DNA of 64,000 nucleotides from a virus. The stretch is taken from positions 44,144-108,143 of IMG/VR virus record IMGVR_UViG_3300025168_000038, one strand, 5' to 3'. The notes below the pieces were generated by a model. That model saw only the letters and a list, made by a program, of their open reading frames with translations, was not told where the DNA came from and searched no databases. A program made the position numbers and the translations under genes. Numbering within the stretch: the stretch's first letter is position 1; the number at the start of each line of letters is the position of its first letter. Shown piece by piece: positions 25,701 to 63,800 of this stretch.

Positions 25701-28700
25701 TTTAGGCTCAGTAAAATTATTTTTATGTGACCATGCCTCTATCATTTCATTAGGGCGTATTTTAGAATAAGTTTTACCTAAACTATCAAAATTAATTGGT
25801 GCTGCTAAAACAAAATTATTTATAAAGTCTTGTTCTGAAATAGGTATTGAGTTCTCTAGGTTAGTATAATAGTCATTACTAAACTTATTAAAAGGAATAA
25901 TAAATATACTTTGTTGAGAGCCTTTATCAAATGATGTTTTACCTGTATTAACTACAAATACTTCCCCTTGCTTATTAATTATTCTTTCATTCTTACTTAT
26001 AGATAGCCCATTTATTCCACCAAATCTATATACTCCTCCTGTATCAACCTCTTTTTCTAATTTTTCAGCAGCTTGAATTGCATCAGCTTTTATACTATAT
26101 ACACCTAAACTATTGGCACCAATAATTTGTCTAAGCTCTTGAGATATCTTGTTACCTTTCTTATCTAGTATTGTATAAATAGATGTATTTGCTTTATCTC
26201 TTTTATTTATAACCTTTTCTTCTACATCAACTATTGCCCCTTCAAAAATAATATTTGAAGGCTTCTGTCTTACTGTTTGAAAAATAGACAGATTTAAATT
26301 TAATTGATCTAGTATATTTAATATATCTGCATTCTCTGCTGCAGGTCCGTTTATAAAATCTTGAAAGCCTGTTTCATTTTTTATATCACTCTCTGTTGGA
26401 ATTAATTCTGCAACCTGACCATTAACCAATACTGGATATCCTTTTGACCATATTTTCTTAATAGCATCATAGGCTGTTTGTATGTTAATCCCAGCAGCGC
26501 TTTCTTTCCATTCTTCTATACTTAATGAATCTCTATTAGGTATAGCCTGATATTGTCTAAACTGGTCTTCTAATGTTCTATTTAATACAACAGAATTGAT
26601 TGTTGGTATTACTTCTACATTTTCTATACCAGCATCATCTAAAATCTGATTAACATCCTTTGCACTCTCATCAGCAACTTCTTCTTGTGACCTCTCTGCT
26701 TTTGCAAGTTCTTCTGTTTGTAGATTATAACTATTTATTATTGGATTAATTTTATTATTGATAATTATAGCATCTTCCAGTATAGATGGATCTAGTAATC
26801 TGCCTGCAAATAAATATGAATTTGACTGGTCTATTGAAGATGTTTCTCCTGTTTCTAAAAAAACTTGAGTAGCTTCCGGTGTTAAATAAACATCTTCTGC
26901 AGCTAAACTATTTAGCATCTGGTTTTGTTTATCTAATACTAGCTGGGCTTTAGTTTGTTCTATTATTATTTGTTTTTGATTAGCCTCTAATACTTTAAAA
27001 TATTCTGCAGATCTATTTATTAAGTCTTCCATTTTATTAGGATCTAATAAATAATCTATAGTATTGTTAAACAAGAATGCATCTTGAGATAAAGCTGCGT
27101 AGTCTACTATTTCATTAATTGCATTATCCACTGCATCAGCATCAACAAACGTTCCTTTAGAAGCAGCTAATGAATTCAAATAGTTTTCTATTGGGCCCTT
27201 TAACTTATTCTTTTTACGCTGATCAAAAAATCCTTTTGCTGTTAGATTATCATTATATACTTTATTAATTCTATCTAGATTCTTTTTCCTTCTTTTCTTT
27301 TCCTTAAGAGATTTTTTATTTCTCTTAATTGCAATCTCATCTAATCCAGATTCATTATTAGCATTTTGTTCTAGTATTAATATCTCTTGTTGTAATCTAT
27401 CTACTTCTACTTCTAAAGATTCTTTATCTAATAAAGGTGTAACATCATTAGCAGCCATATTACCAAACAATGGAGTAGACTCTAATGACTGAGCAATTTT
27501 TACTTTTCTATTTAGTGCATCTTTAAATGCATTCTGAGTAAACATATAAAACATTTCTTGATGTTCATATGCCTTTTTTAATCTTTGCTCATCTCTATAT
27601 TTTCTTGTTCCAGGCGTAAACATTTCTGGCTTGTATCTAGGTTTAAATATGCTTTTCTTATTATTAAACATATCACCATACTCAGTAATAAGATCTAATT
27701 GTTTTTGTATCTTTGATCTTACTTGTTCTATACTACCATAATCCTTTTTAGGAAATGCCTCACCTAAAGCTTTATCATCAAGCTGACTAAAATCTACCAT
27801 CTCTTGTTGATAAAATCCTATTGAGCCTTTTTTATATTTATCATGTAAATTTTTAAACTCTAAGAAATTTCTACCATTAAAGTAATCATACTTATCATTC
27901 CTTGAAATAGCATCATCCATAGCATTGGATGTTTGTTTCATAGTTGACATCATTAGCTGATCATTATTTAAGATAGCATCTAAACCATCTACACCTTTTT
28001 CAGACATATCTTCTGATTGGCGTATAATATCTGCTATTACTTTTTCCTCTGCTGTTCTTGCGTTTGCATAATCCGCTCTAGAAGCTTTACTTCTCAAAGC
28101 ATAGAGTTTAGGAACTTGTTGAAATAAAACATTTTGATAAGGCCCAGCTAAACCACCCATCAAAAATCCGGATAAAAATGTATTTAATCCTTGTGCTGTA
28201 AACTGATCCTGTATACCATCCATTGCAAATGAACCATATAAATTCTTTGTACCTGCACCAGGCTCTCTAAGCAAGGCACCATAGTAGCCTTCATTAGTTG
28301 CAGCAATAGCTTCTTGTGAAACTTCTTGTAGTCCCTCTGCTATTCCTGCTGCACCGTATCTTAACATCATACCTCCAAAAACTCTTGGAGCATTTTTTAT
28401 TCCACCAGCTGTAAATTGTCTAACAATATTTGTAGGAGTAGGCATACCTAAAAAAGTTGCACCCTTTTGATAAGTTCCTTTTAAAGCTTTTCCTGTAACA
28501 GCATCTACTAGTGGATTAGTTCTAAATACTTTTTCTGATAGATTCTTATATCCTCTTCTCCAACTTCCAAAGGCACCTCTTAAAACAAACTTGTTTGATA
28601 AATATATTATACCAAAGTTTTGCATTTGTGTTCTAAATGCAGCTTGAGCAGCTTTTACTTTTGTATCAGATAGTTGATCTGCTGTAATAGCTTTACCAGG

Positions 28701-38667: not shown

Positions 38668-41600
38668 CTAAAGATGCGTCATTATATAGTTTGGTACACT
38701 CATACCCATTCTCCTTGCATCATTTAAATGTATTCTATTTAGTTTATCATATATATTATTGGCTTCCTGACTTTTTACTTTTCCGTTAATATAGTTCTTA
38801 TAAGTATTTAACATCTCTGACTCACCACCTTTTTTATATGGTAGTAAATCTTCTAAACTAAATTGTAAAAAACCTGTTTTACCTAATTCCTTTTTTGCTG
38901 CTTCCATGCTATTTGCAAAACTTTTTCTATTGCCTTTTTTAGAAACATTCTTATGCCCTTTTAACCATACATCTGCCATTGATAATTTACCATCTGCATA
39001 GTCTTTTAATACAGCTGGAGATTCAATTAAATTAGCAAAGAATAATGTATACTGATCTTTTGCACTTAAATCTAGTGCACTTTCTGCATTAAGTATATTT
39101 TCATTAAGTGTATATTTTATTCCTGTTTTTTTACCAGCTGCTTCAGCAACATTTTTATATCTTGTTTTTGCAGTATCAAAAGATTCTGGTTCAAACTGAA
39201 ACATTCCTCTTCCTAAGCCGTCTTTTTCTCCATCTTTGGTAATCTGTCTAGCTAGAGGGTTCATTCTTTGCTGGGGACCAGATTCATGAAAAGCTATATT
39301 ATCAGCTAAATCTGTCCATGTTTTTTCATTACCCCCTCTACTCTCAACCATATAATCTATAATATTAGTAAGACCTAATACTTGATTATTTTTTTTATTT
39401 TGTTCATCTTCACTTACAATAATTTGAGATCTAGAAGGTATAAAACCACCATCTTGTTCTTGTGATAGTGCTGTACTAGCTCCAACAACAGGAATAGCAG
39501 CAGGTAATTTATTTAAAGCTCTAGAAAGAATCTCTCTGTTTTTTGCTGTTTTCTCATATAAATCTAATACTCTTGTGTTACTTAAAAAACCTGAGTTCTT
39601 TCCACCACGATCCCACCCATAATCATAAAAACCTCTAGGTTTATTAGCAAAACTAACTTCAGCTTGTATAAGTTTATTTGGTGTTATCTTATCATAAATA
39701 TTTTTTATAATACCTCTATCTAACATTGATTGTCTTAGTTCAGCTAAATATGATGTAGGTTCCTGACCACTACTTCCTTCTTTAAAATATTCCCATTGAG
39801 CTTTTCCTGTTTTACTTAAATTTGCAGATGGGGTAAGTTTTCTAGCATAATCATCCAAAGGCATTTTTCTTCCTGCTTGTAATAAGTGGTTTAGTTCATG
39901 TACTTCCACAGGTGCATTATTTGAATATTTCATACCTGTAGTCACTTTGCCTGGAATAGATTCTTTGCCTAAACGTTTTAGATTAATTACCATATTTGGG
40001 TCTGCAAGATATTTATTATATAATTCATCTGGAAATGGCATTTCCACTCCTGTTACAGGATCTAAATATTTTTTAGGAACAAAATCACCTGTCTCATATA
40101 CTGCTTTTCTTGGTGCGTTTTGAAACCAAGCGTTAAAATATAATCCATCATTATTCTTAAATAATTCTCTAGCTATATTATGATTAACATGTTTAGGATC
40201 ACCTATTGCATCTTTCCACATTGCTAATGCATTATCATTAATAGTATTTCCTTTAGCTGATACTAACTCGTTATATCTTGCTAATGCATTTCTTTCTGCA
40301 AAAACTTTATTATATGGTTGTCCAACTGATTGAAGATATTTAGCTTCTGCTTCAACTAATCTTTCAAAACCTTCTGAGCCAGGTTTTAAATCATTTAATC
40401 TTTTTTGTATGGTAGCTCTAAAACTATCTGCACCTGCAGCTAACTGTTGTAAAGGCTTTTGTAAATTTGAACCTTCTGGCATAATATCTGCACCACCTCT
40501 ACCTATGTGAGGCGGCCTTACACCTTTAACTGGTGTAATATCATCTAAATTTCTTGGTGTATTACCTGAATATTTTTTTACTTGATCTTTAATAAGACTA
40601 GGTGCTTTAGGGTTTATAAGTTTATTAATCATCTTAGGAAGCTCACCAATTTTAGCTCTAGACAACCAAGCAGGTATAACAGGTATAGCACCTAAAGCAT
40701 TTAATGAACCTGATAAAATTTCACCTTCTTCAAAATCTCTTTTAGAATTTTCAGCATACTGTGCCCATGCAAATGGGTTAAAAACATCAACAAGCATATC
40801 TAAATTATTTCTTTCAGGATTAGAAACATTTAATCCTTTAGGAATAGGTTCATTACGTGCACTATAACCAAATGCTGTAAAAGGGCTAGCTAATTTATCA
40901 GCAAAATTTTTGTAATCAAAAATCTCTTTTTGAAATAAATTCTCATCACCTTGTCTAAACTCATATCCTTGTTGAGCCATTACAGGTTGATTAGGATTAT
41001 TTTCTTGTACTAACTCATTAAAGTATATTTTCATTTTTCTTTCTACTTCAGGTCTTAAATCATTTATATCATTTTCAAGTCCTTTTCTATAATCAATAAT
41101 TGATTTTTGATCAGCTATATTTTGTATATTATCAACACCTTCAACAAACTCTAATGCTTTATTATATTTTTTACCTCTTTTTGTTTTACTATTTTTAAGT
41201 AAATATTTAGCATTTTGATAAGGTGATTTATCTCCATAAGGACCATCCTCAAATGAATATCTTTTATTATCCTGTAACCATGAATCATAAAAAGAATCTT
41301 GTTCATCAAAAGTACTAACATTATATCCTTCATCATATACATCTCTTAGTTTACGCTTATTATCATTTTTATCAAAGTTCTTTAAATCATTCATCATACC
41401 TTTAAGATTGCTAAACTCCATACTTTGAAAATGCAATTGTGCCTCACTATTATTTGGTACTAATTTTTCATTAGTATTCAACATTTTTTCAAACTGACTT
41501 GAGCCAAATTTTTCTTTATTATAATCCCAAATTCCTTCATCTAATAATCTACCTTCTGTTTCTGCTTTAGCTGAGCTTATTTCTGCAGGCATACCAGCAT

Positions 41601-43374
41601 GCATATTAAAATCTTTAAAGTTCTCTTTACCAAATAAATCTTCATACACTTTTAATAAACTTCCCTCAGCATTATAATGTCCCATATTAGTACGGTATTT
41701 TTGTTTACCATCTACTGTTACTCTATTAGTTGGATCATCAATCATATCATCAAATAAAGGACTGGTGTTTGTATTATAACTATGAGCCAATTCATGACGT
41801 AATAAACCTTTTAAAGGATCTCCATAATTAGTTCTTATATTTCCAGAGTTGTCGTATTGTAAACCAATAGAATAAGGGTAATTATAAGCATCTTTAGATA
41901 TTATATCTGATGCTAATTTTCTATCATCTCCATATTGAAATGGTCTAGTCTCAAATGAAGCAATTGCGTTATCTCTTTTAATTTGAGTACTGTCTCCTGA
42001 ACCATCACCATAATATGGACTATATGTAGTTGCTTCATTCTCTGATCCCGTATATGGATAAACTATAGCATTATCTGATCCTGCATTTGTAAAATCTATT
42101 TGATTTTTAACATTCTTTTTAGCCACTTCAATATCTATATCTTTTCCAGTAACATGCTTATAGTTTGCTACATATCTATTTAAAAAAGTTTCACTATTTA
42201 ATTTATTAATTAGTTCTTCTTTTTCTTCTTTAATAGGATAAGATCCAAGATTACCCATTTGTCCTTTAGGTAATGTTTTAACTTTACCATTCTTAGTTCT
42301 AGCATATCTATTGTTTTCATTTTCCATGCTAGGAATAAGTGTGCCTGAGTATGATTTACCTTTCCAATTCCAACTTACTGAGCCACCTCCTTTTTGAGCC
42401 TTTGGAATATATTCTCCTGAATCTTTATTTTCTTCTACATATATTCTATCATATATTTCAAAAGGTTTTACTATATTCTCTGTATCAACTCCTCTAAAAT
42501 CATATTTATCATAAATAGATAAATATTTTTCCTTTCTTTCATTATCATATCCCCATTGAAGTTGAAACCCTTGTAGTGGGTCTCTTCCATAAAAATCATC
42601 TGCATCCATAAAGTCATCTTTAATAAACCTAGATAATCCTTCTACAAATTTTTTCTTTCCTTCAGTTTTATTATCATCTCCTTTGTCATAATCACCCATG
42701 TGTTTTATTAATTTATTCCAATCTATAACATCTGGATTTAATTTTACATATTTATCATTAGGATTCTTTGCATCAGAAGGCATATATTCTGAAGGAATAA
42801 AATACTTTGCATCATTTGGAAGACCTAATGCCTTTGCCCATGCTTCCTCATCTATACTATAACTACCATCCTTATCTAATACAGGTGGTTTACCTTCTTT
42901 ACCAAAATAATCTCTCCATCCTGCACCAGCTAAACCAGATATACTTGGATACCCTTCAGGCCTAATTTGCTCAAAAAGCAGTCGTTTCATATTTGCATCA
43001 TTCACATCATTTGAATACATATTATTATACAAACTATTAGCTGCATTTACCATCAAAGCATTGTCACTACGACTTCTATCTACAACCCTTTCTCCAACAT
43101 TACCTTCCTGAGCCATAGGTATTTCAAATACTTGATCTCCTGGAAACTCATAATTCATACCTGGTTGCATCATTTGTGAGTTGCCTAAGTTATCTGTACC
43201 TAGTACAGGAAACTCCACATCTTCCATAGTAATACTTCCTGACTCAATAATGTTAAAAGGATTATCTACATCAGGACTATTAAACTTATACCCCTCTATA
43301 GATAAATATTCTGATATATCAGTAATATATTCATTTGGTCCTCCTGGTAATCCTATGCTTTTTTTATTTGCCAT
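38668..43374 (-). CDS. Virion protein with two zincin motifs and a lysozyme-like C-terminal domain
   Basis: 1568 residues. Three enzyme-like regions can be seen. First, HELAH (527-531, in LLRHELAHSYN) with acidic candidates Glu598/Glu605 downstream is a zinc metallopeptidase signature. Second, HELNH (1159-1163, in VEVHELNHLLQAG) with Glu1212 in SYLAELRQ is another. Third, residues about 1345-1520 resemble a lytic transglycosylase: AFHESGPQQRMNP with Glu1364 as catalytic acid, then GRGMFQFEPESF, the usual GxxQ-type follow-up. Hydrophobic segments near 900-960 (GSLNALGAIPVIPAWLS) may help membrane contact. A C-terminal tail (KKGGESEMLNTYKNY) follows. It begins 6 bp after the muzzle gene. It probably opens peptidoglycan during DNA entry; the peptidase targets could be host or virion proteins. 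Confidence 0.7.
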   Translation of the reverse strand: MANKKSIGLPGGPNEYITDISEYLSIEGYKFNSPDVDNPFNIIESGSITMEDVEFPVLGTDNLGNSQMMQPGMNYEFPGDQVFEIPMAQEGNVGERVVDRSRSDNALMVNAANSLYNNMYSNDVNDANMKRLLFEQIRPEGYPSISGLAGAGWRDYFGKEGKPPVLDKDGSYSIDEEAWAKALGLPNDAKYFIPSEYMPSDAKNPNDKYVKLNPDVIDWNKLIKHMGDYDKGDDNKTEGKKKFVEGLSRFIKDDFMDADDFYGRDPLQGFQLQWGYDNERKEKYLSIYDKYDFRGVDTENIVKPFEIYDRIYVEENKDSGEYIPKAQKGGGSVSWNWKGKSYSGTLIPSMENENNRYARTKNGKVKTLPKGQMGNLGSYPIKEEKEELINKLNSETFLNRYVANYKHVTGKDIDIEVAKKNVKNQIDFTNAGSDNAIVYPYTGSENEATTYSPYYGDGSGDSTQIKRDNAIASFETRPFQYGDDRKLASDIISKDAYNYPYSIGLQYDNSGNIRTNYGDPLKGLLRHELAHSYNTNTSPLFDDMIDDPTNRVTVDGKQKYRTNMGHYNAEGSLLKVYEDLFGKENFKDFNMHAGMPAEISSAKAETEGRLLDEGIWDYNKEKFGSSQFEKMLNTNEKLVPNNSEAQLHFQSMEFSNLKGMMNDLKNFDKNDNKRKLRDVYDEGYNVSTFDEQDSFYDSWLQDNKRYSFEDGPYGDKSPYQNAKYLLKNSKTKRGKKYNKALEFVEGVDNIQNIADQKSIIDYRKGLENDINDLRPEVERKMKIYFNELVQENNPNQPVMAQQGYEFRQGDENLFQKEIFDYKNFADKLASPFTAFGYSARNEPIPKGLNVSNPERNNLDMLVDVFNPFAWAQYAENSKRDFEEGEILSGSLNALGAIPVIPAWLSRAKIGELPKMINKLINPKAPSLIKDQVKKYSGNTPRNLDDITPVKGVRPPHIGRGGADIMPEGSNLQKPLQQLAAGADSFRATIQKRLNDLKPGSEGFERLVEAEAKYLQSVGQPYNKVFAERNALARYNELVSAKGNTINDNALAMWKDAIGDPKHVNHNIARELFKNNDGLYFNAWFQNAPRKAVYETGDFVPKKYLDPVTGVEMPFPDELYNKYLADPNMVINLKRLGKESIPGKVTTGMKYSNNAPVEVHELNHLLQAGRKMPLDDYARKLTPSANLSKTGKAQWEYFKEGSSGQEPTSYLAELRQSMLDRGIIKNIYDKITPNKLIQAEVSFANKPRGFYDYGWDRGGKNSGFLSNTRVLDLYEKTAKNREILSRALNKLPAAIPVVGASTALSQEQDGGFIPSRSQIIVSEDEQNKKNNQVLGLTNIIDYMVESRGGNEKTWTDLADNIAFHESGPQQRMNPLARQITKDGEKDGLGRGMFQFEPESFDTAKTRYKNVAEAAGKKTGIKYTLNENILNAESALDLSAKDQYTLFFANLIESPAVLKDYADGKLSMADVWLKGHKNVSKKGNRKSFANSMEAAKKELGKTGFLQFSLEDLLPYKKGGESEMLNTYKNYINGKVKSQEANNIYDKLNRIHLNDARRMGMSVPNYIMTHL

Positions 43375-43380
43375 ATTTAA

Positions 43381-46300
43381 TTATCTTTGAGACAGGTTTA
43401 ATTTAGTATTGTTTAATCTTAACAACATCTTTCTATTATTAGATTGCATTCTTCTTAGCAATACGTGATTAGAATAATGTCTAAACTTCTTACGTTGTGT
43501 TTCAGGCTTGTTGTAATTTAAGTTAATACTATTAAGTGTTCTTACATAACCATTACATGACGTTGACCATACAGGTTGTTCAGCATTTGTAAATTCACCT
43601 CTATCATTTGTTATATCCCAAAATTGGTTTAATCTAAATTTATGTTCTACTTTGTCTGCTAATACATTTATATTTTGTGAACCTATAATTGGATAAGTTA
43701 ATTCATTCCATGGGTTATTATAAGGTGACATATTTAATAATAATAATCCTGAAACTTGTTCATTGTTATATATTGTAGCTTGATCAAAATTAAAGTTCAA
43801 ATCTTCATATGCATCACCACCACATGCATTATCCATAGTACCTTTATAAACATAAGTTTCTAATTGGTATTCTATGCTTCTTATTGTATTTACTGCTTGT
43901 CCTGTATTACTAATAAGATCTATCTCCCATGGATAATCAGTTCCATAAAAATTACTAAACAAATCACATCTAACGTTGTGTCTCCAAAAAGAACTTACAT
44001 TATAGTTTGGAGGGGTCTGTACTAAAGTATTGTAATTACATAAAGCTGGATCAGGATCTACCCATGCTGGATCCCCTATAGAATATATTTCTGGTGGAGT
44101 ATCAGGACATGTGCCGCCTGATGGAGGTGGTATTAGGGTTCCATTAGTATCACAACTGCATTCTACTTTTCTACAAATAGGTGGTGTACCTGCTTGATTA
44201 GCAGCATCACAATCATCTGTGGCAGAAGTCAGTGAGTTATAGAAACCTGTAGCAGGATCTAAAAATACTTTTGTATATCCAGCTGGACATGTACAAACAA
44301 ATGGTACTGAGCATACATTACCAGCTATGGTTTCTGCAGCTAATGTTAAACTAGCAGCATCATTTGCTGCCATTATTACTTGTGCTGAACTTGGTGTACT
44401 AGTAGAAATATTATATGTTGTATTAGTAGCAGCATTTAATACAATTGGGCTTTGCGGAACTGAAAATTGTCCTCCTTGATTTGGTGGTGCTAAAGGAGCA
44501 CAAAATACAGAATATATTTCTTGCTTAAATTCACTTTGTAAAGTTGGTTCATTTTGTGCCCAACTTCCAGTATTATTTGGTATAATAGATGGAGGTATAG
44601 AATAAAATGAAGGCTGCCCTTGATTACCTTGATTATATCCAGCTGTAAATGCAGGATCTAATCCTACAGAAGTTTGAGTAAAATTTGAACTTTGACTTAT
44701 TCCTGTCATATATAAATCACCACCATAACCATTTGCTACTACGTTTCCATCAGTAATAACAATCATTATTTGTTTAAAAAATGAATCTAATGATCTTGCA
44801 GGATAAGCACTTGCACCTAATTCACTTTGATTTTTCTTATTTAAACAATTAAGACCAGTCTCTACGTTAAATTGATTTTCAGGAGCTACACCTGAAATAT
44901 TAAAATTAGCATTTCCTCCACCACTTACTGGTCCAAGACCCGTTCCTACTGACAAACGTGTCTCGTCATTTTCCCAGTTTTTATAATAAAATGCAATTAT
45001 TTCACATACATCACAATTATGCTTCATAGTATAAATACCACCTTGCAACAAACGGAATGTATGTGTAGACCATGCAGTAAAACCTATTTGCATTGTTTCT
45101 GCAGCTAATTGTGCTACAACGCCAGGATCAGTTAAAAATGAATATAAAAATTTTAATTGTGCGTTACCTCTATCGGCTAATCCTCCAGGTGAGTTACCAG
45201 GCCCTTGAGGAAAAGTAAATGATCCATATGATAAACCAGCACATTCAATTGGAATCCAATTAAGATTAGTTAAAAGACCACCTGTTGTACTACCTGAAAC
45301 ATCCATAGAAAAAACTAGATCTAATAAACAATCTGTAGAACCACCTGTAATTGTTGCAGCTAATTCACTTACATCAACATTAGAAGGAGCATTAAAATTA
45401 GATCCCTGTTCACACAACCCTGTTGTAGGATTAAAATTATAACCCGGAGGACATTGTGGAATAGTTGTAGTTGTTGTCTTAGTAGTAAAGAAATGATTTA
45501 TACTTGGTAAAGATAATTCAGGATGCCAGTCATGGAATGAAATCCATGCTTTAGTTTTTGGATCATAACTTATAGTCCATGAACAATCATCAAAATATAT
45601 TGGGTCTCCTAAAGTAATAACAACACCATCAGCTGCTGTAGCTCCTGTGTTCAATATAAATCCTTCAGAAAGATTAAATGAAACTGTAGCTATGTGTTCT
45701 TTTTTTACTTTATAATCTCTTTTCATAAAATAGACTATATCATCATTAGCATCATATACTGTTTGACATCCAATACCTGCAACCGGATTATCAGCCAAAG
45801 GTGAATTCTCTAAATCAGGAAACTGTTTAATTAATGATGATGGTAAATACTCACTAAACCAATACTTCATACCTTGATTAGATATAGGTGTAAGTCCTTT
45901 ACCAGGAGCATATTGAAATATTTTACCTTGTGCTTGTGATATATAAAATAATCCAGCAGGTGTGTTCATTACACTTCTTAAACTTTCACATGATCCATAT
46001 TCATTAGATACATCTGCATTGGCAATATTTTGAAAAGGCTGGCTAAACAATCCTCCATCACCAATTGTCAACTTAGTATCAGTCATTGTTTTAAGCTGAT
46101 CTACACCTTGAAAAAGTTGTGGAGATAAAAATGGAAAAAATACTACAGCTCCACTTTTACTAAATGGTTTAATTACACTAACTTCACCTTTAAAGTCTTT
46201 GTAATTAAATGGTAAAAATACTCTCCAAAAATCTTTTTTTAGTTCATTCTGTGCTTGTAATGAATAGATTAATCTTTTAGGATAAATAGTAAAACAAGTC

Positions 46301-49300
46301 TCTGCAACAGTAGGGTCATAACTTCTTGATTGTATTTGACCAAATGTAGTTATCTGTGATTGAAACTTTGCAGGTGTTAATGATTCATCATACTTATAGT
46401 AATTGTCAAACTTTTGAATCTCTGCATGAAATAGTTCTACTAAGTCATTGTATTTATAAATATCATAAAATCTTTTTTCTTTTGGTTCTTCATAATCTCT
46501 ATACGCTATATTAATTTCTGTCTCTACAAAGAAATCATTTATACCGTTAACGTGAGTATACATATAAGCATGAACCATACTAAATGCGTCATTTAAATCA
46601 TCACCTTGAAAAAGAGATCCAAATATATCAGATACACCACAAGTATTTTCACCTCTATCTAAATAAAATAAATCTTTAGGTAGAACTGGACCTGAACCAG
46701 GTAACAAAGCAGATAAACCTGCTGTAGAAATAACTTCTGCTAATCCAGAAATATCATACTTCCTTGTATCCATCCAAAATCTTGGGTAAGGTAAATTTAC
46801 TCTTAAACTATAATCATATGGAAAACCATCATATTGACCCATCATAAAATCAGTAAATATTGGCATAATACATTTTTCAGTATATCTACCTATAAAAACA
46901 TCACCACTAAAAATTGGATCTGTTGTATACATAAATGTATCAGGAAGTGTTGGATCAAGATGTGCAACACAACCTCTCATTTGTATTTGTTTGATGCCTT
47001 CTAATTGACCATATTGATTGCTCATATTGAACTTAAGGGCACCATACATTGCTGATATATTTTCTTTAAACGGACCTTCAGGATTTAATAATCTTTCATT
47101 AGAATTGCTAGGGTCAACACCATTACCTGCATCATTAATAAATCCACCTGCAACAAATCTTGATCTATCAGTAACACTGTAATTAGAATCAAAAGGATCA
47201 CTAGTAGATACAGCAACATAATCTGGTCTAAATAAATTATTTATTTTATATTTATTATTATCAAATGTTTGAAAAGATGAACCTAAATAATTAGATGCTT
47301 CTGTGTTACTTCTAAATCTGTTATCATAACCAAGTGGATTAAACCCACTATAAAAACCATGTGAGTTATACTTTAAAGCATGCTGTTGAAATGAAATCAT
47401 ATTATATATCAAGTCTACTACTTCTTGACCACCTATTGCAATATTTTTTTGAGTTAATAAAAACCCTATAGCTATTCTTATAGGTTTAGGTAAATTTGAA
47501 TCTGGTGAATCTCTAACAACACCTTGTTGTGCACCACCACCCATAAAACCATCTCCAAATGCTTGTGCTTGATCTATATTTTCTATTGCTAAATCATTTA
47601 TTTCATCGGTTGTAGATTTACCTGAAACAAAATCAGTTATGCTATTCCATGTATTATTTAAAAATTGAGAAACTTGTTGCCATATATTTCCTCCAATACC
47701 TGAACCAGTTACATTATTGTAATAATCTTGAATGTTATCTCCAGCTCCAGTATATGCATTACTGCCCTTTTCATTATTATCACCATCTATTTCTCCACCA
47801 CTTCTATTATTTAAATTTACTGTTGCAAGACCAGGTGGTACTGTTAAACTAACAAATCCACCACCTCCTTTTTGTTCTTCACCTTTTATTTTCCATTCTG
47901 GAAAAGCATTGTTAATAGCTTGTACAGGCATTGCTCTTGTATCAGGAGTTCCTTGAATTTGCCTAATAGAATAACCAAGACCTACAAACCCAGCTAACAT
48001 TGCAGCAAGTCCTCTTAATAATTTTTGCCCCGGATGATTTTCAGATGAAATAAAACCACCTGAAGATGCACCATTTATTTCTCCATAAATTTTAGTTTCA
48101 TTAGCATTTAAAAAAGGCCTAGTAAACATTAAATCTGGGGAATGAAAAGAAAATACATCTTCCGTATAACCACTTAATGCAGGATATGAACTTACAGATT
48201 GTGCTATACCATCGTCACAATCTTCTGTTCTATCTTGAGAAAAATAAACATCATCTCTTAAATCATTATATGGATAGTTAGCATAAAGTCCTTGTATGCT
48301 TCCACCTATTAAATTTTCATTATCTGGTACATCATACTTACGCATGTTTTTAAACATACCTTTTGCTAAAATACTTTTAGCTCCAAGTCTTGAACCTCTT
48401 AATATTTCATAACCAACTACATTTGGTATATAAGTTATACCATCATTTAATAATGGTCTACCTATATTGCTAAATTCTACACCAAGTATATTTATACTAT
48501 CTCCTGCATCTTCAGTTAAATGTAACTGATTACCTCCACTTTGTTCAGAAGGCATTTTATGATGCCTAATATATTCTCCACAAAGGCTACCCCATATTTC
48601 TGGTCTGTTAGGATATCTTTCTGTTGATTGCCAGTATCCCATATCCCCTTTGGCAATTATAGTTGTCTCATCACTAAGTTGAATATTCACTGGTTGAGTT
48701 ACTACTCCTGTATTATATATTTCAAATAAATATTCTTCTGTTCCCAATACATTGATGGAATTAGAAGAAGTTATTAAGTCATCTTCAGCAATAACCAAAC
48801 CATTTGGCAATGTATAATCTTGAGGTGGTCTACCAGGTATGTGATAAGATGAAGACCTTTCTCCTGTATTATATATCCATCTTATGAAAAATGCATATTG
48901 TTCATCACGCATAAATCCTAGTTTGTTTCCTGCTTTATTATAATAATTACTAGGAACTTTATTTACAACAAATTTAGTTATTATATTATTTGCAATAGGT
49001 TGATAATTAAAATCAAATTGCTCAGATGGTCCTTGTCTTATTAACCAATCATTTACTACAAACATAGATTGTGACTTCTCATATGAAGGAGAAATATAAA
49101 ATAAATTCTCTGCACTTTCAGACACTAATGATGGATCAATAAAGTCTATACTTATATCAGTTATTTCTGTACTATACAGTCCAATTATTTTTCTAAATAA
49201 CTGTCCTTGATTTCTTATTAATAGTGTTAACTGAAAATTATCAAATCTTTTATCTAGATTGGATATAGTTATATCCAAACCACATGCGTTATCAGAATGG

Positions 49301-50040
49301 TTCCATAAAGTTTGTATATTAGAAATACCAATATAATCACTTACTCTTTGTTCATTTTGCACATAAGCAACATAAGCCTGATAAGATCCATCTTCTAATA
49401 AACCACCATCCCTACTCTTATTTAATTTAATACATGGTGTACTCATTAAAGGTGCTAACCTAATCTCTTCACAATCTAATCTTAGAGGTTGTGCATCAGG
49501 ATATATTAGACATGGTTCAATACCTGTTGGGTTATCATAATCTTTAATGTATGGTACATTATCTATATTTAATGTTCTTGATGGATTGTTACTATCATCC
49601 CAGTATACTTGCCATGTACAATCAAAATTCTCTTTTGAAGCACCTGTAATTAAAAACTTCTTTTTAAAATTTAAACACTGATCATTTACTATTGTAGTAT
49701 ATTTACATTCACTGTCATCAAATCTACCTATTTCAGAATTTATATCATCTGTAGAATATACAATCCATTCATCTCCATATCTATGTATAGCACCTATAAC
49801 TGTATAAGGAATAACACCACACTGTAAATTTGCTGGCTCATTACCAATTAGACCTACATCACCATCATTATCATTATTTGCTGCATTTCTAGCATGCCAC
49901 CAAGCATTATTTAACTCAAGAGACTGAGCAATATCTTTGTTCATCCCTTTTGTAAAACTGTTTGTTCTTACAGATGATGAAGAAAACTTAGGTTTTGCAG
50001 CAGGTTTTTTAGAAGCAGGTGTAGACTTTTTCTTTGCCAT
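43381..50040 (-). CDS. Muzzle-like tail protein with embedded von Willebrand A domain
   Basis: 2219 residues. A Lys/Ala/Ser N-terminal tail is followed by SFTKGMNKDIAQSLELNNAW and AANNDNDGDVGLIGNE, the opening of the tail 'stabilisation' or muzzle proteins of crAss-like phages. A long beta-rich body follows to about 1520. Residues about 1530-1545 are Cys-rich (CPPGYNFNPTTGLCEQG). A von Willebrand factor A domain then spans about 1570-1890. Its metal site is intact: DVSGS (Asp1580, Ser1582, Ser1584) and IVITDG (Asp1764). A second Cys-rich stretch (CTCPAGYTK, CRKVECSCDTNG) runs about 1905-1975, and the muzzle-like fold resumes to a basic C-terminus. Position directly after the ring genes matches a tail knob or muzzle. 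The insert probably faces outward and binds host or fibre proteins. Confidence 0.8.
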   Translation of the reverse strand: MAKKKSTPASKKPAAKPKFSSSSVRTNSFTKGMNKDIAQSLELNNAWWHARNAANNDNDGDVGLIGNEPANLQCGVIPYTVIGAIHRYGDEWIVYSTDDINSEIGRFDDSECKYTTIVNDQCLNFKKKFLITGASKENFDCTWQVYWDDSNNPSRTLNIDNVPYIKDYDNPTGIEPCLIYPDAQPLRLDCEEIRLAPLMSTPCIKLNKSRDGGLLEDGSYQAYVAYVQNEQRVSDYIGISNIQTLWNHSDNACGLDITISNLDKRFDNFQLTLLIRNQGQLFRKIIGLYSTEITDISIDFIDPSLVSESAENLFYISPSYEKSQSMFVVNDWLIRQGPSEQFDFNYQPIANNIITKFVVNKVPSNYYNKAGNKLGFMRDEQYAFFIRWIYNTGERSSSYHIPGRPPQDYTLPNGLVIAEDDLITSSNSINVLGTEEYLFEIYNTGVVTQPVNIQLSDETTIIAKGDMGYWQSTERYPNRPEIWGSLCGEYIRHHKMPSEQSGGNQLHLTEDAGDSINILGVEFSNIGRPLLNDGITYIPNVVGYEILRGSRLGAKSILAKGMFKNMRKYDVPDNENLIGGSIQGLYANYPYNDLRDDVYFSQDRTEDCDDGIAQSVSSYPALSGYTEDVFSFHSPDLMFTRPFLNANETKIYGEINGASSGGFISSENHPGQKLLRGLAAMLAGFVGLGYSIRQIQGTPDTRAMPVQAINNAFPEWKIKGEEQKGGGGFVSLTVPPGLATVNLNNRSGGEIDGDNNEKGSNAYTGAGDNIQDYYNNVTGSGIGGNIWQQVSQFLNNTWNSITDFVSGKSTTDEINDLAIENIDQAQAFGDGFMGGGAQQGVVRDSPDSNLPKPIRIAIGFLLTQKNIAIGGQEVVDLIYNMISFQQHALKYNSHGFYSGFNPLGYDNRFRSNTEASNYLGSSFQTFDNNKYKINNLFRPDYVAVSTSDPFDSNYSVTDRSRFVAGGFINDAGNGVDPSNSNERLLNPEGPFKENISAMYGALKFNMSNQYGQLEGIKQIQMRGCVAHLDPTLPDTFMYTTDPIFSGDVFIGRYTEKCIMPIFTDFMMGQYDGFPYDYSLRVNLPYPRFWMDTRKYDISGLAEVISTAGLSALLPGSGPVLPKDLFYLDRGENTCGVSDIFGSLFQGDDLNDAFSMVHAYMYTHVNGINDFFVETEINIAYRDYEEPKEKRFYDIYKYNDLVELFHAEIQKFDNYYKYDESLTPAKFQSQITTFGQIQSRSYDPTVAETCFTIYPKRLIYSLQAQNELKKDFWRVFLPFNYKDFKGEVSVIKPFSKSGAVVFFPFLSPQLFQGVDQLKTMTDTKLTIGDGGLFSQPFQNIANADVSNEYGSCESLRSVMNTPAGLFYISQAQGKIFQYAPGKGLTPISNQGMKYWFSEYLPSSLIKQFPDLENSPLADNPVAGIGCQTVYDANDDIVYFMKRDYKVKKEHIATVSFNLSEGFILNTGATAADGVVITLGDPIYFDDCSWTISYDPKTKAWISFHDWHPELSLPSINHFFTTKTTTTTIPQCPPGYNFNPTTGLCEQGSNFNAPSNVDVSELAATITGGSTDCLLDLVFSMDVSGSTTGGLLTNLNWIPIECAGLSYGSFTFPQGPGNSPGGLADRGNAQLKFLYSFLTDPGVVAQLAAETMQIGFTAWSTHTFRLLQGGIYTMKHNCDVCEIIAFYYKNWENDETRLSVGTGLGPVSGGGNANFNISGVAPENQFNVETGLNCLNKKNQSELGASAYPARSLDSFFKQIMIVITDGNVVANGYGGDLYMTGISQSSNFTQTSVGLDPAFTAGYNQGNQGQPSFYSIPPSIIPNNTGSWAQNEPTLQSEFKQEIYSVFCAPLAPPNQGGQFSVPQSPIVLNAATNTTYNISTSTPSSAQVIMAANDAASLTLAAETIAGNVCSVPFVCTCPAGYTKVFLDPATGFYNSLTSATDDCDAANQAGTPPICRKVECSCDTNGTLIPPPSGGTCPDTPPEIYSIGDPAWVDPDPALCNYNTLVQTPPNYNVSSFWRHNVRCDLFSNFYGTDYPWEIDLISNTGQAVNTIRSIEYQLETYVYKGTMDNACGGDAYEDLNFNFDQATIYNNEQVSGLLLLNMSPYNNPWNELTYPIIGSQNINVLADKVEHKFRLNQFWDITNDRGEFTNAEQPVWSTSCNGYVRTLNSINLNYNKPETQRKKFRHYSNHVLLRRMQSNNRKMLLRLNNTKLNLSQR

Positions 50041-50057: not shown

Positions 50058-51044
50058 TTATGATGCTGATGTTTGAGATGCGGTTCCACATCCAGCTGTT
50101 GCATCTTGTACAACAGAGTTTCTACCACTTGTTACTACATTTGGTCCTGCCAATGTAGGATTAATAGGAGCATAACTTAGAAACATATTATAATAATTAT
50201 GATATTGTGCCCTTCTATTCATTGTCCATACCTTTTGCATTTCTGCAAAATCAGGAGTATTAACAAAAGATAATGCATTGTTTCTTGCTGCACGCAATCT
50301 AGTTTCTATTAAACCAAGTTGTTGAGATACATTCTCACCTTGCCACACCATGTTTTCTAATATTCTTTGCTTTATAGCATATTCATAATACTCATTACAA
50401 TATGGTTGATCTAATACTAATAAATCACCAGAAGCATCTTCCATAGCACCTTGATAACTTAAATATACTTTACCTGTTCTAAATGTTGTAATTAAAAATC
50501 CATCTTTTATTTGTGCAATGTCTAATGCTTGTGCACCCAAAGATGGACAAAAACAAACTGGGTCATTAACATTTTGAATTCTTAACTGTGTCCAACTTGA
50601 AAATTGTCTATATTGATTAGGACCTACTCTTTGAATAAGTTGATGACTGTTTTCTCCATCACAAGTTTTTATAACACATACGTCTTTACATGTATCATCT
50701 TTACTACAAGGAGACATTTCTCCTGGAGCTGGTACATAGGGTACATCATTAAAAGTTTCTACGTGTGTGCCTGAGGGCATAGTATTATTAATAGTGTATG
50801 ACCCGCATCTAAATGCATAATTTAAAAAAGCAAAATCCATTGGTAATTGTGCTCTACCATGTTCAATATCTAATACTACTTCTTTAGTTCTATGTATTTT
50901 TAATCCCAAATCATAATTAACTCTAGTTGCAACTTTAATTAATTGTTGAGGTTCAATCATTCCTTCTAATGCATATGTAGAAAAATCAATGGAAACATCT
51001 TCCATCAACTGACTGAATGTTCTATATTTTTGTGATACTCCCAT
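50058..51044 (-). CDS. Tail ring/collar-type protein (Crassvirales-like)
   Basis: 328 residues starting MGVSQKYRTFSQLMEDVSID, with LIKVATRVNYDLGLKIHRTK then LPMDFAFLNYAF, a pattern I associate with crAss-like ring or adaptor proteins between portal and tail. There is a Cys cluster in the middle (PCSKDDTCKDVCVIKTCDG, about residues 115-133). The segment YCNEYYEYAIKQRILENMVW is helical. The Thr/Gly/Ser tail is probably flexible. The start overlaps the stop of the preceding ring-like gene by one base (TAATG) and the muzzle gene follows after 17 bp, so the trio is a translationally linked tail module. The family call is by memory and gene order. Confidence 0.7.
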   Translation of the reverse strand: MGVSQKYRTFSQLMEDVSIDFSTYALEGMIEPQQLIKVATRVNYDLGLKIHRTKEVVLDIEHGRAQLPMDFAFLNYAFRCGSYTINNTMPSGTHVETFNDVPYVPAPGEMSPCSKDDTCKDVCVIKTCDGENSHQLIQRVGPNQYRQFSSWTQLRIQNVNDPVCFCPSLGAQALDIAQIKDGFLITTFRTGKVYLSYQGAMEDASGDLLVLDQPYCNEYYEYAIKQRILENMVWQGENVSQQLGLIETRLRAARNNALSFVNTPDFAEMQKVWTMNRRAQYHNYYNMFLSYAPINPTLAGPNVVTSGRNSVVQDATAGCGTASQTSAS

Positions 51045-51718
51045 TATTGTCTATTTATATTACGTTTATTATCTGAATCCTCAGAAGGGATTTGCATTGT
51101 GCCTAACATTGTTTGTATAACTTGTGCCTCAATCTCTGCAAATAAAGCTTCAGGAATATATATAGGTTGTTCATATCTAGGAGTACAATCATCTGAAGTA
51201 TCACAATTCCATTTTGTTATGTCAGAATTAAATACTCCTTCTACTTGTAGTGCATCCCAATTAATATTTGGTGAATATATATATCCATCTAACCACCAAA
51301 AATATAATGTTCTATTGTATTTAAATGAAGTTGTTTTAGTCATAGATGTATAAGTACCAGGTTGAGTAGCTTGAAGCTCTTGTGAGCCATCTATAGAGCT
51401 TACAGTACGGATTAAAGGTCCCCAGTATCCTTCTATCATTGAAGGTAGTCTATGTTTAGAACGTTTTATAATACATCCACTTGTTATTCCTGAACAACCT
51501 GCTTCTACTTTATCTACTTCTATTAATTCTACATATGGTAAGTTTTTCCATACAGCATTAAACTTCATTAATTTATTAGCATAATCTTGTCTTCTCATTA
51601 AGATTTGTGCAAACTTTTCTATTAAGCTATATATGTATCTGTCAGTTACAAATGCATCTTGTACTTCTGCTTTAACTTGTCCTCTAATTCTTGATACTAC
51701 TTCAGCTATTGTTGACAT
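51044..51718 (-). CDS. Tail ring-type structural protein (Crassvirales-like)
   Basis: 224 residues opening MSTIAEVVSRIRGQVKAEVQ, then DRYIYSLIEKFAQILMRRQD. This 'TIxEVVxxIRxxxKxxxxDxxxxxRYIYSLIxKxxxxLMRR' helix pair is the start I recall for a conserved crAss-like tail ring protein. The C-terminal half has strands around an FWWLDGYIYSP segment and several Cys. It ends IPSEDSDNKRNINRQ and overlaps the next ring gene by one base. It is preceded by the 188-residue conserved protein after 5 bp. Its predicted place is a dodecameric ring under the portal, inferred from family and order. Confidence 0.75.
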   Translation of the reverse strand: MSTIAEVVSRIRGQVKAEVQDAFVTDRYIYSLIEKFAQILMRRQDYANKLMKFNAVWKNLPYVELIEVDKVEAGCSGITSGCIIKRSKHRLPSMIEGYWGPLIRTVSSIDGSQELQATQPGTYTSMTKTTSFKYNRTLYFWWLDGYIYSPNINWDALQVEGVFNSDITKWNCDTSDDCTPRYEQPIYIPEALFAEIEAQVIQTMLGTMQIPSEDSDNKRNINRQ

Positions 51719-57461: not shown

Positions 57462-57893
57462 TTATGGGCATTCTTCTGGAGTAAATGTACACGTCTTAGC
57501 ATTATGATAACCATAAAAGCCAATCTGATCATAGTAATAGCCAACTGGTGCACACGTTGTACAAGTGTTGTTAGTATATAATGCAGTAGCATTTTCAGTA
57601 CTTGTAGCATTCATATACCTAGTTACATTAGTTTCTCCTTGTTCACAATATTCATCTGGGTCATTTTCTCCAGTAAAGTAAAATGTTTGTGCTTGACATA
57701 CCGCACCACCTCCTGCACTCTTACCATAAAAGTCTTGTATTGAAATTGTACCTGATGATACATTTGCTAATGTTCTAAAGTTAGTTTGATTTAAACTAGA
57801 ATTAGCATTTTGTGCTAAACTAAGTTCTAAATTAATAGATCTGTCCGTAGCAGTACCTCCTATTGATAATGATCCGCTAGTTACTAATGTCAT
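57462..57893 (-). CDS. Fibre-associated small structural protein
   Basis: 143 residues. The N-terminal 60 follow a pattern common in phage structural operons: SGSLSIGGTATDRSINLELS, then SLNQTNFRTLANVSSGTISI with DFYGKS at the end. The second half is Cys-rich (VCQAQTFYFTG, DEYCEQGETN, CTTCAPVGYYYDQ, CTFTPEECP), suggesting a small disulfide- or metal-bound domain, perhaps at the fibre tip. Its start overlaps the 3' end of the large fibre gene by 17 bp, so the two are translated together. The pattern is recognised from memory; function is inferred from the neighbour. Confidence 0.65.
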   Translation of the reverse strand: MTLVTSGSLSIGGTATDRSINLELSLAQNANSSLNQTNFRTLANVSSGTISIQDFYGKSAGGGAVCQAQTFYFTGENDPDEYCEQGETNVTRYMNATSTENATALYTNNTCTTCAPVGYYYDQIGFYGYHNAKTCTFTPEECP

Positions 57894-60800
57894 TTATCTG
57901 TGCTTTAAGTTCATCTATTTGTTTCTGTTGATCTTTTACTGCTTCAATAAGATAACCAACAAGGTTACCATATGCTACAGATTTCATACCATCTTCCTTC
58001 TCATTAGTCATTACTAATTCAGGTGCAACTTTTTCAAGCTCTTGTGCAATAACACCAGAACCAGCTTTACCATCTTTAGTGTATGAGACACCTCTCATAT
58101 CTAAAACTTTAGAACCATCTAAAGTTTCTATATCATCTTTTAATCTTTCATCAGAGAATGCAGTAATATTACCAGTAGCTGTAAAGTTTCCACCGTCAGC
58201 ATCAAAAGTAAATCTTGTAGCATTACCACTATTTCCATCTCTTATTTTAAAGTCTTCTCCATTGTTTATATCCATAAACATATCAGAACCACTAAAAAAC
58301 ATTTCTATATCATCACCAGTTCCAAAACGTAATATATCATTATCAGCTAAATCAATGGCCCCCCTAACATTTAATGTATTAGTAACAGTTAAATTAGAAA
58401 AGCTACTTGTACCTGTTTGTAAAAAAGGTAGATCATTTAGTGTATATTTAACTGTTGCTCCTGTACCACTTGAAGATGTAGAAATTAATAATTCATCATC
58501 TACATCAGGAGTACCTGAACCACCTGGTGCATCATTAATTAATCCTGACGTACCATAGTCTACTGCTAAAGACACAGATCCACTTGCACCACCGCCTGTC
58601 AATCCACTTCCTGCAGATACATTAGTTATATCTCCAACACTAGTTGTATAACCAGCTCCGTTAGTTAGTTGGTTATTATTAGTAATAGTACAATTCAAAG
58701 TTACTGAACCTGAGCTTCCCCCACCTGACATACCTGTTCCTGCACTAACATTTGTAATATCTCCAGAATTATTTGTAAATGGTAAATTACTTATAGTTGA
58801 TTTAGCAACATTAGTTGTAGATGCACTACTAACAAGTATTTGATCTGAAGTACTTAGCGTACCTGTAGCTGTGTTAGGTGCATCTAATATAATATTATCA
58901 CTTCCTACATAATCAACAGCAACAGAAACACTTCCTGAACTACCACCACCAGTTAAACCATCACCTGCACTTACATTAGTTATGTCACCATTATTATTAG
59001 TAAATGGTAAATCAGATACATTTCCATATTGTATATCATTATTACTTACGTCACTATATATTATCTTATCTGTTGTTGCTATAGCTGAACCAGTAGCATC
59101 TACACTAGCCAATATGAAATTATCTGTACCAGCATAATCCATTGTAACTGTTATAGTTTCATTGCTTGATTGATTTGTTGTAAAATTACCTGAAGCACCA
59201 GAGTTTATACGTATACCATCAGCACCTGCAATTGTTATAGTTGCATTATTAGCATTTACTACACCTAAATTACTTCGTGCACCAGATGCAGTACTAGATC
59301 CTGTACCACCATTTGCCACAGAGAGATCAGTACCTGACCAATCTGAATTACTAATAGAAAGTGTACCACCTAACGTTACTGTACCAGTTGATGTAATTGT
59401 TCCACCTGATAGTGTTAAACCATTTACTGATCCTGACGTAGCTACACTTGTAACACCTGAAACAACTGAACTTGAAGCTGCCCCTATAAAAGTTCTAATA
59501 GCAGAAGGACTACTACAGTATCTTGTATAATTATCTGAGCTATTGTTAACTCTAAAAGCAATTGCTCCAGATATAGTACTTTGATTTGCGTAATTAGCTC
59601 TAAGTAATCTAACATTAAGATCTGCAGATGAATCTCTATAAGCAATAGTACTTGCTGTTGCAGCAGTTGTTGCGTTTGAAGTTACTGTAAATGTAGTGTT
59701 ACCACTTTGATTTGCAGTAGCATCCATAGAACCGCTTAATCCATTACCACTTGTTCTTCCGTCAATTTGACCATTACCAACTGATGAAGAAGTTATGTAG
59801 TTAGCATCATTTTCAAATGTAGAATTACTAATATTACCAGCTGCAATTTTAAATTGACTACCAGAACTATTTACAACTGCAAAAAAATCTGCATTACCAC
59901 CAGTTGCTGTTGTTGCTAATCCATTTAAATTTAAAGATAGAGTACCCGTAGATGTAATAGTTCCACCAGTTAAACCTGTACTAGTTGCTACTGAAGTAAC
60001 ACCAGCACTTGAACTTGTACCAGCACCTATAAGACTTCTTACCTCTGCTGCAGTAATACCACTAGCTAAAGATGGTGTAGATCCATTTGTTGTTATAGCT
60101 GGTAAAGGACCATCATAATTTAATGTAATAGTTTCATTTGCAGTACTTACAACAGAACTAATATTTGTACCTCCTATTATACCAACTGTTTGTCCATTTG
60201 ATATAGTAAAAGTAGTTCCTTGACCAGAAGCTAAATTACTTACACCAAAACCTGTCATAGTACCACTACCTGTGCCAGCTCCAATTAAACTTCTTACTTC
60301 TGCAGCTGAAATTCCACTATTTAAACTTGGTGAAGAACCATTACTTAATATAGCTGGAGTACCAGTATCATTAACAACTCCTAAGTTACTTCTAGCTCCT
60401 GATGCTGTGCTTGAACCTGTTCCTCCATTAGCAACTGATAAGTCTGTTCCAGACCAATCACCGTTGTTAATTGAAAGTGTCCCTCCTAAAGTAACAGTAC
60501 CTGTAGATGTTATTGTACCTCCACTCAAAGTTAATCCATTTACACTACCAGATGTTCCAACAGATGTAACTCCAGCAGAAGAGCTTGTTCCCGCTCCTAT
60601 GAGACTTCTTATTTCTGCTCCAGTTACACCAGATGCTAAAGTAGGAGTTCCACCACCGCTAAATATACCTGGTTCTGCAAAAGATGTAAAACCAGAATTA
60701 TTGTTAAATATACTTAATGGTATAGATGAAATTGTACTTTTTCTTTCCGCATTACCATCTAATGATATTAAATGATCTGTTCCAACTAGAGTTCCTGAAT

Positions 60801-63800
60801 CTGCAAATTCACTTAAATCTAAAGCTAAATTTACTGTACCACCATTGGTTACAGTTGCTCCTCCATCTAACCCTGTTGCTGTGTTTATTACAAAGCTTGA
60901 CATTGTGCCTTGAGGATTACTAAATGATGTAGTATAAGTACCACCATCATTTTGTGTAAGTGTTAATGTTATTGTAGAAGAACCTGAGTCACTAAAGCCA
61001 GTAATCATGTTATCATATGCAGAGTTAGATTCTGCTGAACTACCACCTGACCAAGTAACTGTACCACCAACAGCTAAAGCATTTGTTGATGTATTAAATG
61101 TCAGACCACTGTCACTTGTAATGTTTGACGCACTGTTCCATATTGATATTCTTCCTGCAGATCCAGAACCTGTTACATTACCAACTTGGGTATTATCTAT
61201 CTTCTGCCAAGCATCTGTTGCTTGATCAGAAAATACTGCCCAATCTCCTACGGCCCAATCTGTGATGCCATCTAGGTTAGTAGATCCTGCTACTGAAACT
61301 ATGTAGTATTCCCCTACTGTTCCTGATCCACTTGATAATGTTGGTGAGTTTGTACTTGCGTTCCATACCCCATCATATTTTAATACTCCTGTTACAGCTG
61401 TATTAATAGCTGTTTGTATTTGTGCTCCTGTTGCTAAGTTAGAAGAAGAAGAACTTACTGTACCTGTATTAGCTGTTACTGTAACCCCAGTAGTTCCACT
61501 TACCTGAATTGTGTTTGCGTTACCTGCAGATACAGTATTTACCTGCCCAGTTCCTCCTGTAGTTACACCAGTTACTCTACCGTATGCATCTACTGTAATA
61601 TTGTCTATCTTAGTACTGTTAGATGTAGAACCGTAAGTTCCAGCTCCTACACCACCAGTTGCCATGTTAATAGTAATTGTTTCATTACTACCTTGGTTAG
61701 TTGTAAAATTACCACCAGTTGTTAAGTTTGTACCTGCGGCTATAGTTATAGTTGCATTGTTTGCTGCAGAAGGTATACTTGGAAAAGAGGTAAGGTTACC
61801 TGCTCCGTTAACATACTGTGAAGAACTACCTGCCATTGTAATAGCAAGAGTACCTGATGTAGTTACTGCTGAACCTGTGTTAAATGCATTTCCTCCATGA
61901 GAAATTCCTACACTTGTTACAGTTCCTGTGTTAGTTGTAGCAGAAGTATTTATAGTAACAGTTGCTCCGCTTCGTACTGTTGTTATATTAGTACCCCCTG
62001 CTATATCTACACTTTCTCCATTTGAAATTGTTTCACTTCCTCCACTATCTGCTGTTAAAGTCCAAGTTGACATTGAACCTCCTGATGAAGTTACATATCC
62101 ACTATCATTAGTCCACTGAGAAATGTTTCCACTTTTGTTTGTGAGGGTATTAGTTGATGAAGCTGTTATGTATCCTGATCCGTTACTAAGTTGGTTATTG
62201 TTAGTTATTGTATTATTTAATGTTACACTACCTGATGTACCTCCTCCACTTAGTCCAGTTCCTGCCACTACTGCTGTTATATCACCCTGTGGCACACCAG
62301 ATATAGCGTTATCTACATAAGTTTTATTAGCCGCATCTGTGCCTGATGATACTGTATCAATACCTTGTATTCTACCTGTACCTGTAAGAGTAATACCTGT
62401 TTTTACAGTTAATACGCCAGGTAGATAGGACGTGGTATCAGCTCTATTAATATATGCATTACTTCTTCCTGCCCATCCACTGCTCCAATTATCAGGAGAA
62501 GAGTTAATTTCCAGTCCTGCCTCAGCATTTAAATAAACTGATTCACCTGTTTGACCTGTAGCATAAGAAGATGACTCACCTGCATTAAGTACAAGTTGTT
62601 GACCACTTTGAGTATCAATTCTTGATGTTTGTATACCACCTGAATTTGTAAATACTCCTACACCGCTAAATGTTTTAGTACCCGCTATACTTTGTGTACC
62701 TGTAGTTCTTACAACTGTACTGTCTAATTGAATAGTTCCTGTTGAAGTTATTGTACCACCTGTAATACCATTTGTAGTTGCTACAGACGTTACACCACTA
62801 CTTACACCACTAACAGCATTGTCTACATAAGCTTTAGTTGTAAAATTAGCTGCAGCAACCGGTGTTATACCAGATACTAAACCACCAAAAATTCCTGTTG
62901 TAGCTACATTTAAACCTGCATAACTTCTTAGTAATCCTAAAGTCTCAAGACCATCACTTACTCTAATAGCAGAATTAGCCGCTACTCTAGTCATAGTAAG
63001 TCCATTAATATTTATACCAGAATCAGTTGAAGAAATAAATGATGTAGCGGTAGCTGTACCTGCAAAAGTTGCATTTTGACTAGCATCTAGGACAAGTGCC
63101 AAAGTATCTTGTGTATAAAATCTCATTAATGAACCTAATGAAATTGCTCTTATATTTAAATTATCTCTGTCAGATGAATCTAAAGAAATTGCAGCTCTAG
63201 CTGTACCTGTATCAGTTAAATAAATATTATCTTCTGCATAAACATCTCCACTAGCTATCATATTCCCTGTTACATTAACACCTGTGTTTGTGGTTTCAAA
63301 CTTTTTAGAATCATTGTAAAATAAATCTACAGCAGCATTCTCAGTTAAAGTAATCCATCTTTTACCACTTCCATAAGTTTGAAAATACATATTATCAGAA
63401 GCTTGTATATACAGGTCTCCTGTGCCTGTGTCATTTATATAGCTATTACTTGCATTGTGGTATATTTGAAGGTCATCAACAGTTCCAAAATTAGCTTTTA
63501 CACCATCATTAAACCTTGCGTTTTTAAGAAACCTATTTACTTCATATTGTCCATCAATTTTAAAGTATTCTGCATCCCCACCCGCACCATTATCACATTG
63601 GAACGATATGATAGCATTATCTGCACGTTGCATAATATACATATCACCAGAAGTATTCTCTAGATAATTATCACTGCCATCGTTATATATTTTCAAGTCT
63701 GAACTTGATCCAAAGATTACCCTATTGGTACCCATGGCTATATTTCCAGTCATTGTACCACCAGTTAGTTCTAAGTATCTACCATCAAGATCAACTGTAA

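Follow-up and report, generated by a model that had tools for sequence, protein, structure and literature searches.

The crassvirus muzzle protein encoded in the 64,000-nucleotide stretch of viral DNA analysed here (the window, which forms the terminal 64 kb in a virus record of 108,143 bases) carries an insert whose core is predicted to be a von Willebrand A (vWA) domain, and our comparison with related muzzles shows that vWAs at this site have been exchanged between muzzle lineages. We consider it fairly probable that the insert acts as an exchangeable surface-binding head; that the vWA would bind a host receptor is suggested by its modular exchange together with its fold. The features on which the argument draws are the following.

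43381..50040, minus strand: muzzle protein, 2219 residues (open reading frame; PHROG virion structural families; hhalign to phi-crAss001 gp44; Foldseek to 7qok_A/7qol_P)
50058..51044, minus strand: ring protein 1, neighbour of the muzzle (PF24228 CrAss_Ring_1, 32 bits against a cut-off of 27)
51044..51718, minus strand: ring protein 2, neighbour (PF25702 CrAss_Ring_2, 62.7 bits)
45601..45663, minus strand: position of a second socket, about residues 1460-1480, empty in the window and filled in the L045/L064/L067/L093 clade
44008..45480, minus strand: whole insert, residues 1521-2011 (comparison with relatives; 0-9 residues here in outgroup muzzles)
45328..45480, minus strand: N-terminal Cys-rich frame, residues 1521-1571, with C1530, C1543 and C1571 (insert alignment; retained in frame-only relatives)
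44314..45327, minus strand: predicted vWA domain, residues 1572-1909 (Pfam on relatives, PDB profile search, AlphaFold and Foldseek)
45289..45303, minus strand: MIDAS motif 1, D1580-V-S1582-G-S1584 (conservation 1.00/1.00/0.97 in 39 non-redundant inserts)
44959..44961, minus strand: MIDAS motif 2, T1694 (conservation 0.97, same inserts)
44746..44757, minus strand: MIDAS motif 3, ITDG 1762-1765 with D1764 (conservation 0.97, same inserts)
44038..44313, minus strand: C-terminal Cys-rich frame, residues 1910-2001 (insert alignment; retained in frame-only relatives)

The muzzle protein and the site of its insert

The open reading frame at 43381-50040 is without internal stops, and the next ones upstream encode ring proteins 1 and 2, the order of ring protein 1 and muzzle being that of gp43-gp44 in phi-crAss001. 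The N-terminal part of the product aligns to phi-crAss001 gp44 (hhalign E 3.3e-5, probability 72), and a model of the C-terminal 995 residues matches 7qok_A and 7qol_P (Foldseek E 1.5e-4 and 3.1e-4); because the overall confidence of this model is low (pTM 0.39), its use was restricted to this match and to the secondary structure of the insert root. Given the adjoining ring proteins and the sequence and structure matches to gp44, the product is a crassvirus muzzle, in keeping with the original prediction of a muzzle-like protein. A phmmer search of the PDB with the whole window protein gave no match, and an hmmsearch with the muzzle profile recovered the vWA part alone. Downstream of the muzzle gene, a 1568-aa protein (38668-43374) has weak similarity to Phage_lysozyme2 (E 0.21) and a HELAH zinc-peptidase-like motif recognized by eye (RHELAHSY). 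A 4387-aa open reading frame at 16728-29891 has no Pfam match at E 0.01 and, from its position alone, could be the crassvirus virion RNA polymerase.

The gp44 protein of phi-crAss001 (PDB 7qok, 7qol), a member of the same family in the same order beside ring protein 1, has 1371 residues and no vWA insert. It comprises a ring-joining domain, a propeller, two IG-like domains and a crass domain, and muzzles from other crassviruses are reported to contain inserted segments within their crass and IG2 regions (PMC10172136). The window insert maps further C-terminal than these: because muzzle residues 1305-1445 align to gp44 1083-1202 (E 1e-4, probability 57), a stretch lying past the 318-1021 IG2/crass region (PMC10172136), the insert would leave the C-terminal propeller part and not the distal crass domain. 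The proposal that the domain sits at the tail tip thus holds for the assembly as a whole, but the site itself lies in the C-terminal propeller region, beyond the distal crass domain. Leptolyngbya phage Lbo-JY46 and csAssE-Sib have homologous muzzles (25-27% identity to the window muzzle) that lack the insert, with 8-9 residues at its site; across the outgroup muzzles, these two among them, the site has 0-9. In csAssE-Sib, the gene immediately upstream of the muzzle is annotated in the record as belonging to the TnpB family (L076:3521-4744).

Within the insert, the vWA is flanked by Cys-rich stretches, as had been noted from the sequence, at about residues 1530-1571 and 1910-2001. Twelve frame Cys positions are conserved in about 94-100% of the aligned sequences, and the frame is probably disulfide-bonded. 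At the root of the insert, the C-terminal model has strands at residues 1521-1529 and 2000-2009, which suggests a two-stranded ribbon stalk.

The vWA fold and its MIDAS

Given the window protein by itself, Pfam makes no vWA call, and the domain is also missed when single genomes are searched with PF13519 and PF00092; it was found solely through family profiles and structure. Among 45 homologous inserts, 14-18 match Pfam VWA or VWA_2 (best E 2e-6), and the insert family profile searched against the PDB matches the vWA of Mfa5, a mussel thread matrix protein, and the I domains of integrins alpha-1 and alpha-2. When the window insert was modelled with AlphaFold (pLDDT 76, pTM 0.72) and compared with the PDB in Foldseek, vWA structures ranked highest; CMG2/ANTXR2 and the integrin I domains were matched at probability 1.00, and the pilus tip adhesins SpaC, PitA, and Mfa5 were also among the best. 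The structure prediction agrees with the profiles, and the core of the insert is predicted to have a Rossmann-like vWA fold, as was first proposed from the DVSGS (1580-1584) and ITDG (1762-1765) motifs. Integrin alpha I domains share with the muzzle vWA the fold and the full MIDAS, DxSxS...T...D, but at about 10% identity, and integrin conformational switching is not implied for the muzzle. SpaC, PitA, and Mfa5 likewise carry their vWA on a surface-exposed tip protein; these belong to cellular pili, not to phages, with about 10-13% identity, and a similar role is an analogy only.

The original prediction had called the domain intact, and at the sequence level this is justified by the presence of T1694, a third MIDAS element that it had not named. 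D1580, S1582, S1584, T1694, and D1764 are all present, each at least 97% conserved in the 39 non-redundant inserts, and they rank 2, 3, 4, 7, and 11 for conservation among the 338 vWA columns (the chance of five random positions all falling in the top 11 is about 1e-8). A divalent metal at this site is putative. The loops beside D1580-S1584 and D1764 vary most in both sequence and length (9-66 and 15-61 residues), and hypervariable loops around a conserved MIDAS would be the pattern expected of a binding face. One insert, that of L028, is without MIDAS residues. It could be argued that little selection acts on the insert and that it is mere neutral filler, as its repeated loss and high divergence might indicate; however, the MIDAS and the twelve frame Cys are conserved at about 94-100% despite a mean column identity of 27% in the insert alignment, and we regard this explanation as very improbable.

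Loss, exchange and replacement among related muzzles

A first comparison covered 74 IMG/VR loci among the matches listed, and across all the relatives compared here the site, always at the same position, is either empty or occupied by the bare Cys frame, by a vWA, or by another head. Two more scans brought the set to at least 101 distinct muzzles with both anchors readable, comprising at least 24 insert-free, at least 7 frame-only, at least 62 with a vWA or a vWA-type insert of vWA length (a few of them divergent), and at least 8 in which the frame carries some other head. The scans behind these numbers were ranked by similarity and include some loci that share contigs, and the numbers do not represent population frequencies. 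The Cys frame, about 140 residues, occurs without a vWA in seven loci from the first scan. For example, the L056 and L050 cores are 92% identical, and L050 is without the vWA, with the gap falling between "...NCL" and "CAPGYT"; L022 and L070 show the same contrast at 83% core identity. The segment is therefore not an integral part of the muzzle in all close relatives, being absent, reduced to its frame, swapped, or replaced. Because several lineages have no insert or the frame alone, the head is not essential in general.

In the core tree, whose root is set by the choice of outgroup, the insert-free muzzles (the chosen outgroup) fall outside the vWA clade. The frame-only state requires six changes on this tree, and starred branches force no fewer than five of these. 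This fits one ancient gain followed by repeated loss of the vWA, subject to the rooting by outgroup choice. That the insert is a separable module, as the original prediction had suggested, is well supported, but with a shift of emphasis: the mobile part is mostly the vWA, which is seated in an older and more widely retained Cys-rich cassette.

Exchange is seen in L004 and L005, whose cores are about 97% identical in protein sequence. Inside the vWA, identity falls to 39-51% in protein and 52-63% in DNA, and beyond it returns to 95-100%. The two are sisters in the core tree (support 100), whereas in the vWA tree L005 groups with L009/L019 (100) and L004 with L007/L008/L026/L062/L021 (97). A second conflict concerns L034 and L036, which join L035 in the core tree and L014/L010/L016 in the vWA tree. 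Such an exchange would be most simply explained by recombination inside the conserved Cys-rich flanks. The principle has a precedent in Bacillus thuringiensis phage 0305phi8-36, where gp164, a protein of the baseplate/fibre region, has a vWA that is replaced by another domain in relatives (PMC2147016). Phage lineage and protein are unrelated to those studied here, the swapped vWA being the common theme, and the description consulted mentions no Cys-rich frame or second socket for gp164, unlike the present muzzles.

The L056 insert had no match in the phage-isolate collection, and this route thus pointed to no host. As for the origin of the vWA, a weak test with one degenerate pattern against bacterial and archaeal genomes revealed no cellular vWA donor, with L079 as the sole match. 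L079:1627-7710 is a crass-like phage muzzle with a vWA and an adjacent ring-protein gene, on a 114,697-base contig of a metagenome-assembled genome labelled Pseudomonadales; this contig is probably a mis-binned phage genome. A diversity-generating retroelement as the source of variation was rejected, since a search for a reverse transcriptase (PF00078) gave no match in the 108-kb record, which is possibly incomplete.

Heads other than a vWA occur in the same frame. In L160 (14734-16794), the vWA is replaced by a metzincin-type protease (HEMGHVVGAYH; Reprolysin_3, 26 bits against a cut-off of 22.4), within an uninterrupted frame of 2838 residues that has muzzle sequence on either side of the metzincin. 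L108/L166/L106, L102/L133, and L132/L099 carry further heads of no confident family, for which a search of PDB sequences gave no convincing match. In addition, one clade has a second, Cys-flanked insert in a socket near window residue 1473. This second socket holds a vWA in L045 (14804-15889), L066, L094, L132 (13771-14916), and L099 (13657-15180), with Pfam VWA above cut-off in L045 and L099; L067 and L071 have there a vWA relative without MIDAS residues, and L064 and L093 another domain. L093 and L045, with cores 83% identical, differ in their second-socket heads.

A structural role for the insert, as a stabilizer of the muzzle or a point of contact with adjoining subunits or with tail fibres, would account for the retention of the Cys-rich frame even without a vWA and for the site in the propeller region. 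On the other hand, the clean loss of the vWA from near-identical muzzles and its replacement by unrelated folds argue that no required contact is made by the vWA itself, and we hold a structural role to be quite unlikely. Another explanation is that the ligand of the head is not a specific receptor but generic material of surfaces or the environment, such as exopolysaccharide, mucus, or particles, and that virions are in this way concentrated near cells. The occurrence of unrelated folds in one common frame and the tolerance of head loss would both be in line with this, and vWA adhesins often bind matrix-like ligands. The conserved MIDAS, the hypervariable loops near it, and the swaps between lineages, however, resemble specific recognition under changing selection, and generic binding seems to us a possible but unlikely account.

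A possible role in host recognition

Under the favoured reading of an exchangeable surface-binding head, in each muzzle subunit the ribbon and the Cys-rich frame would hold the vWA outward from the C-terminal propeller part, and six copies would therefore ring the tail end, the hexamer and its exposure being taken from homology. The MIDAS would coordinate a divalent metal, and the vWA may bind an acidic group of a host-surface ligand via the variable loops around it. Such contact would help adsorption. Because the muzzle gates ejection (PMC10172136), it might, more speculatively, also help to open the gate. Specificity would change when the vWA is recombined between the conserved Cys-rich flanks, when it is lost, or when another domain takes its place in the same frame. 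We also entertain, as a doubtful extension, a muzzle with two adjacent sockets for unrelated folds (vWA, metzincin protease, other heads) within a common Cys-rich frame, in which ligand binding by a head would mechanically help the gate to open as an integrin-like infection switch.

Several observations count against a surface-binding head, namely the MIDAS-less copies of L028 and of the second sockets of L067 and L071, the insert-free and frame-only lineages, and the site in the propeller region. The same genome also encodes a 1958-aa fibre protein (57877-63753) with a C-terminal Peptidase_S74 chaperone (40 bits). This fibre may be the main receptor binder, which likewise weighs against the muzzle head. 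MoxR-vWA pairs have been reported in archaeal viruses and jumbo phages and proposed to act in virion assembly (PMC7824862), and an assembly co-chaperone of this kind might be considered for the muzzle vWA. However, a MoxR AAA ATPase (PF07726) was not found in the 108-kb record, which is possibly incomplete, and the vWA forms part of a virion protein and is one that relatives can do without, making such a function extremely improbable.

Our literature search found no paper joining "crAss-like phage" and "von Willebrand" and none demonstrating that the muzzle takes part in specificity; within the literature searched, what appears to be new is the crassvirus muzzle setting, together with the common Cys frame, the second socket, and the protease alternative. 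From the point of view of host recognition, nature offers muzzles that are nearly identical but have a vWA, none, a swapped vWA, or another head such as a protease; this series makes cell recognition by crAss-like phages testable and directs attention to a single exchangeable module and, in the case of the vWA, to particular putative metal-ligand residues.
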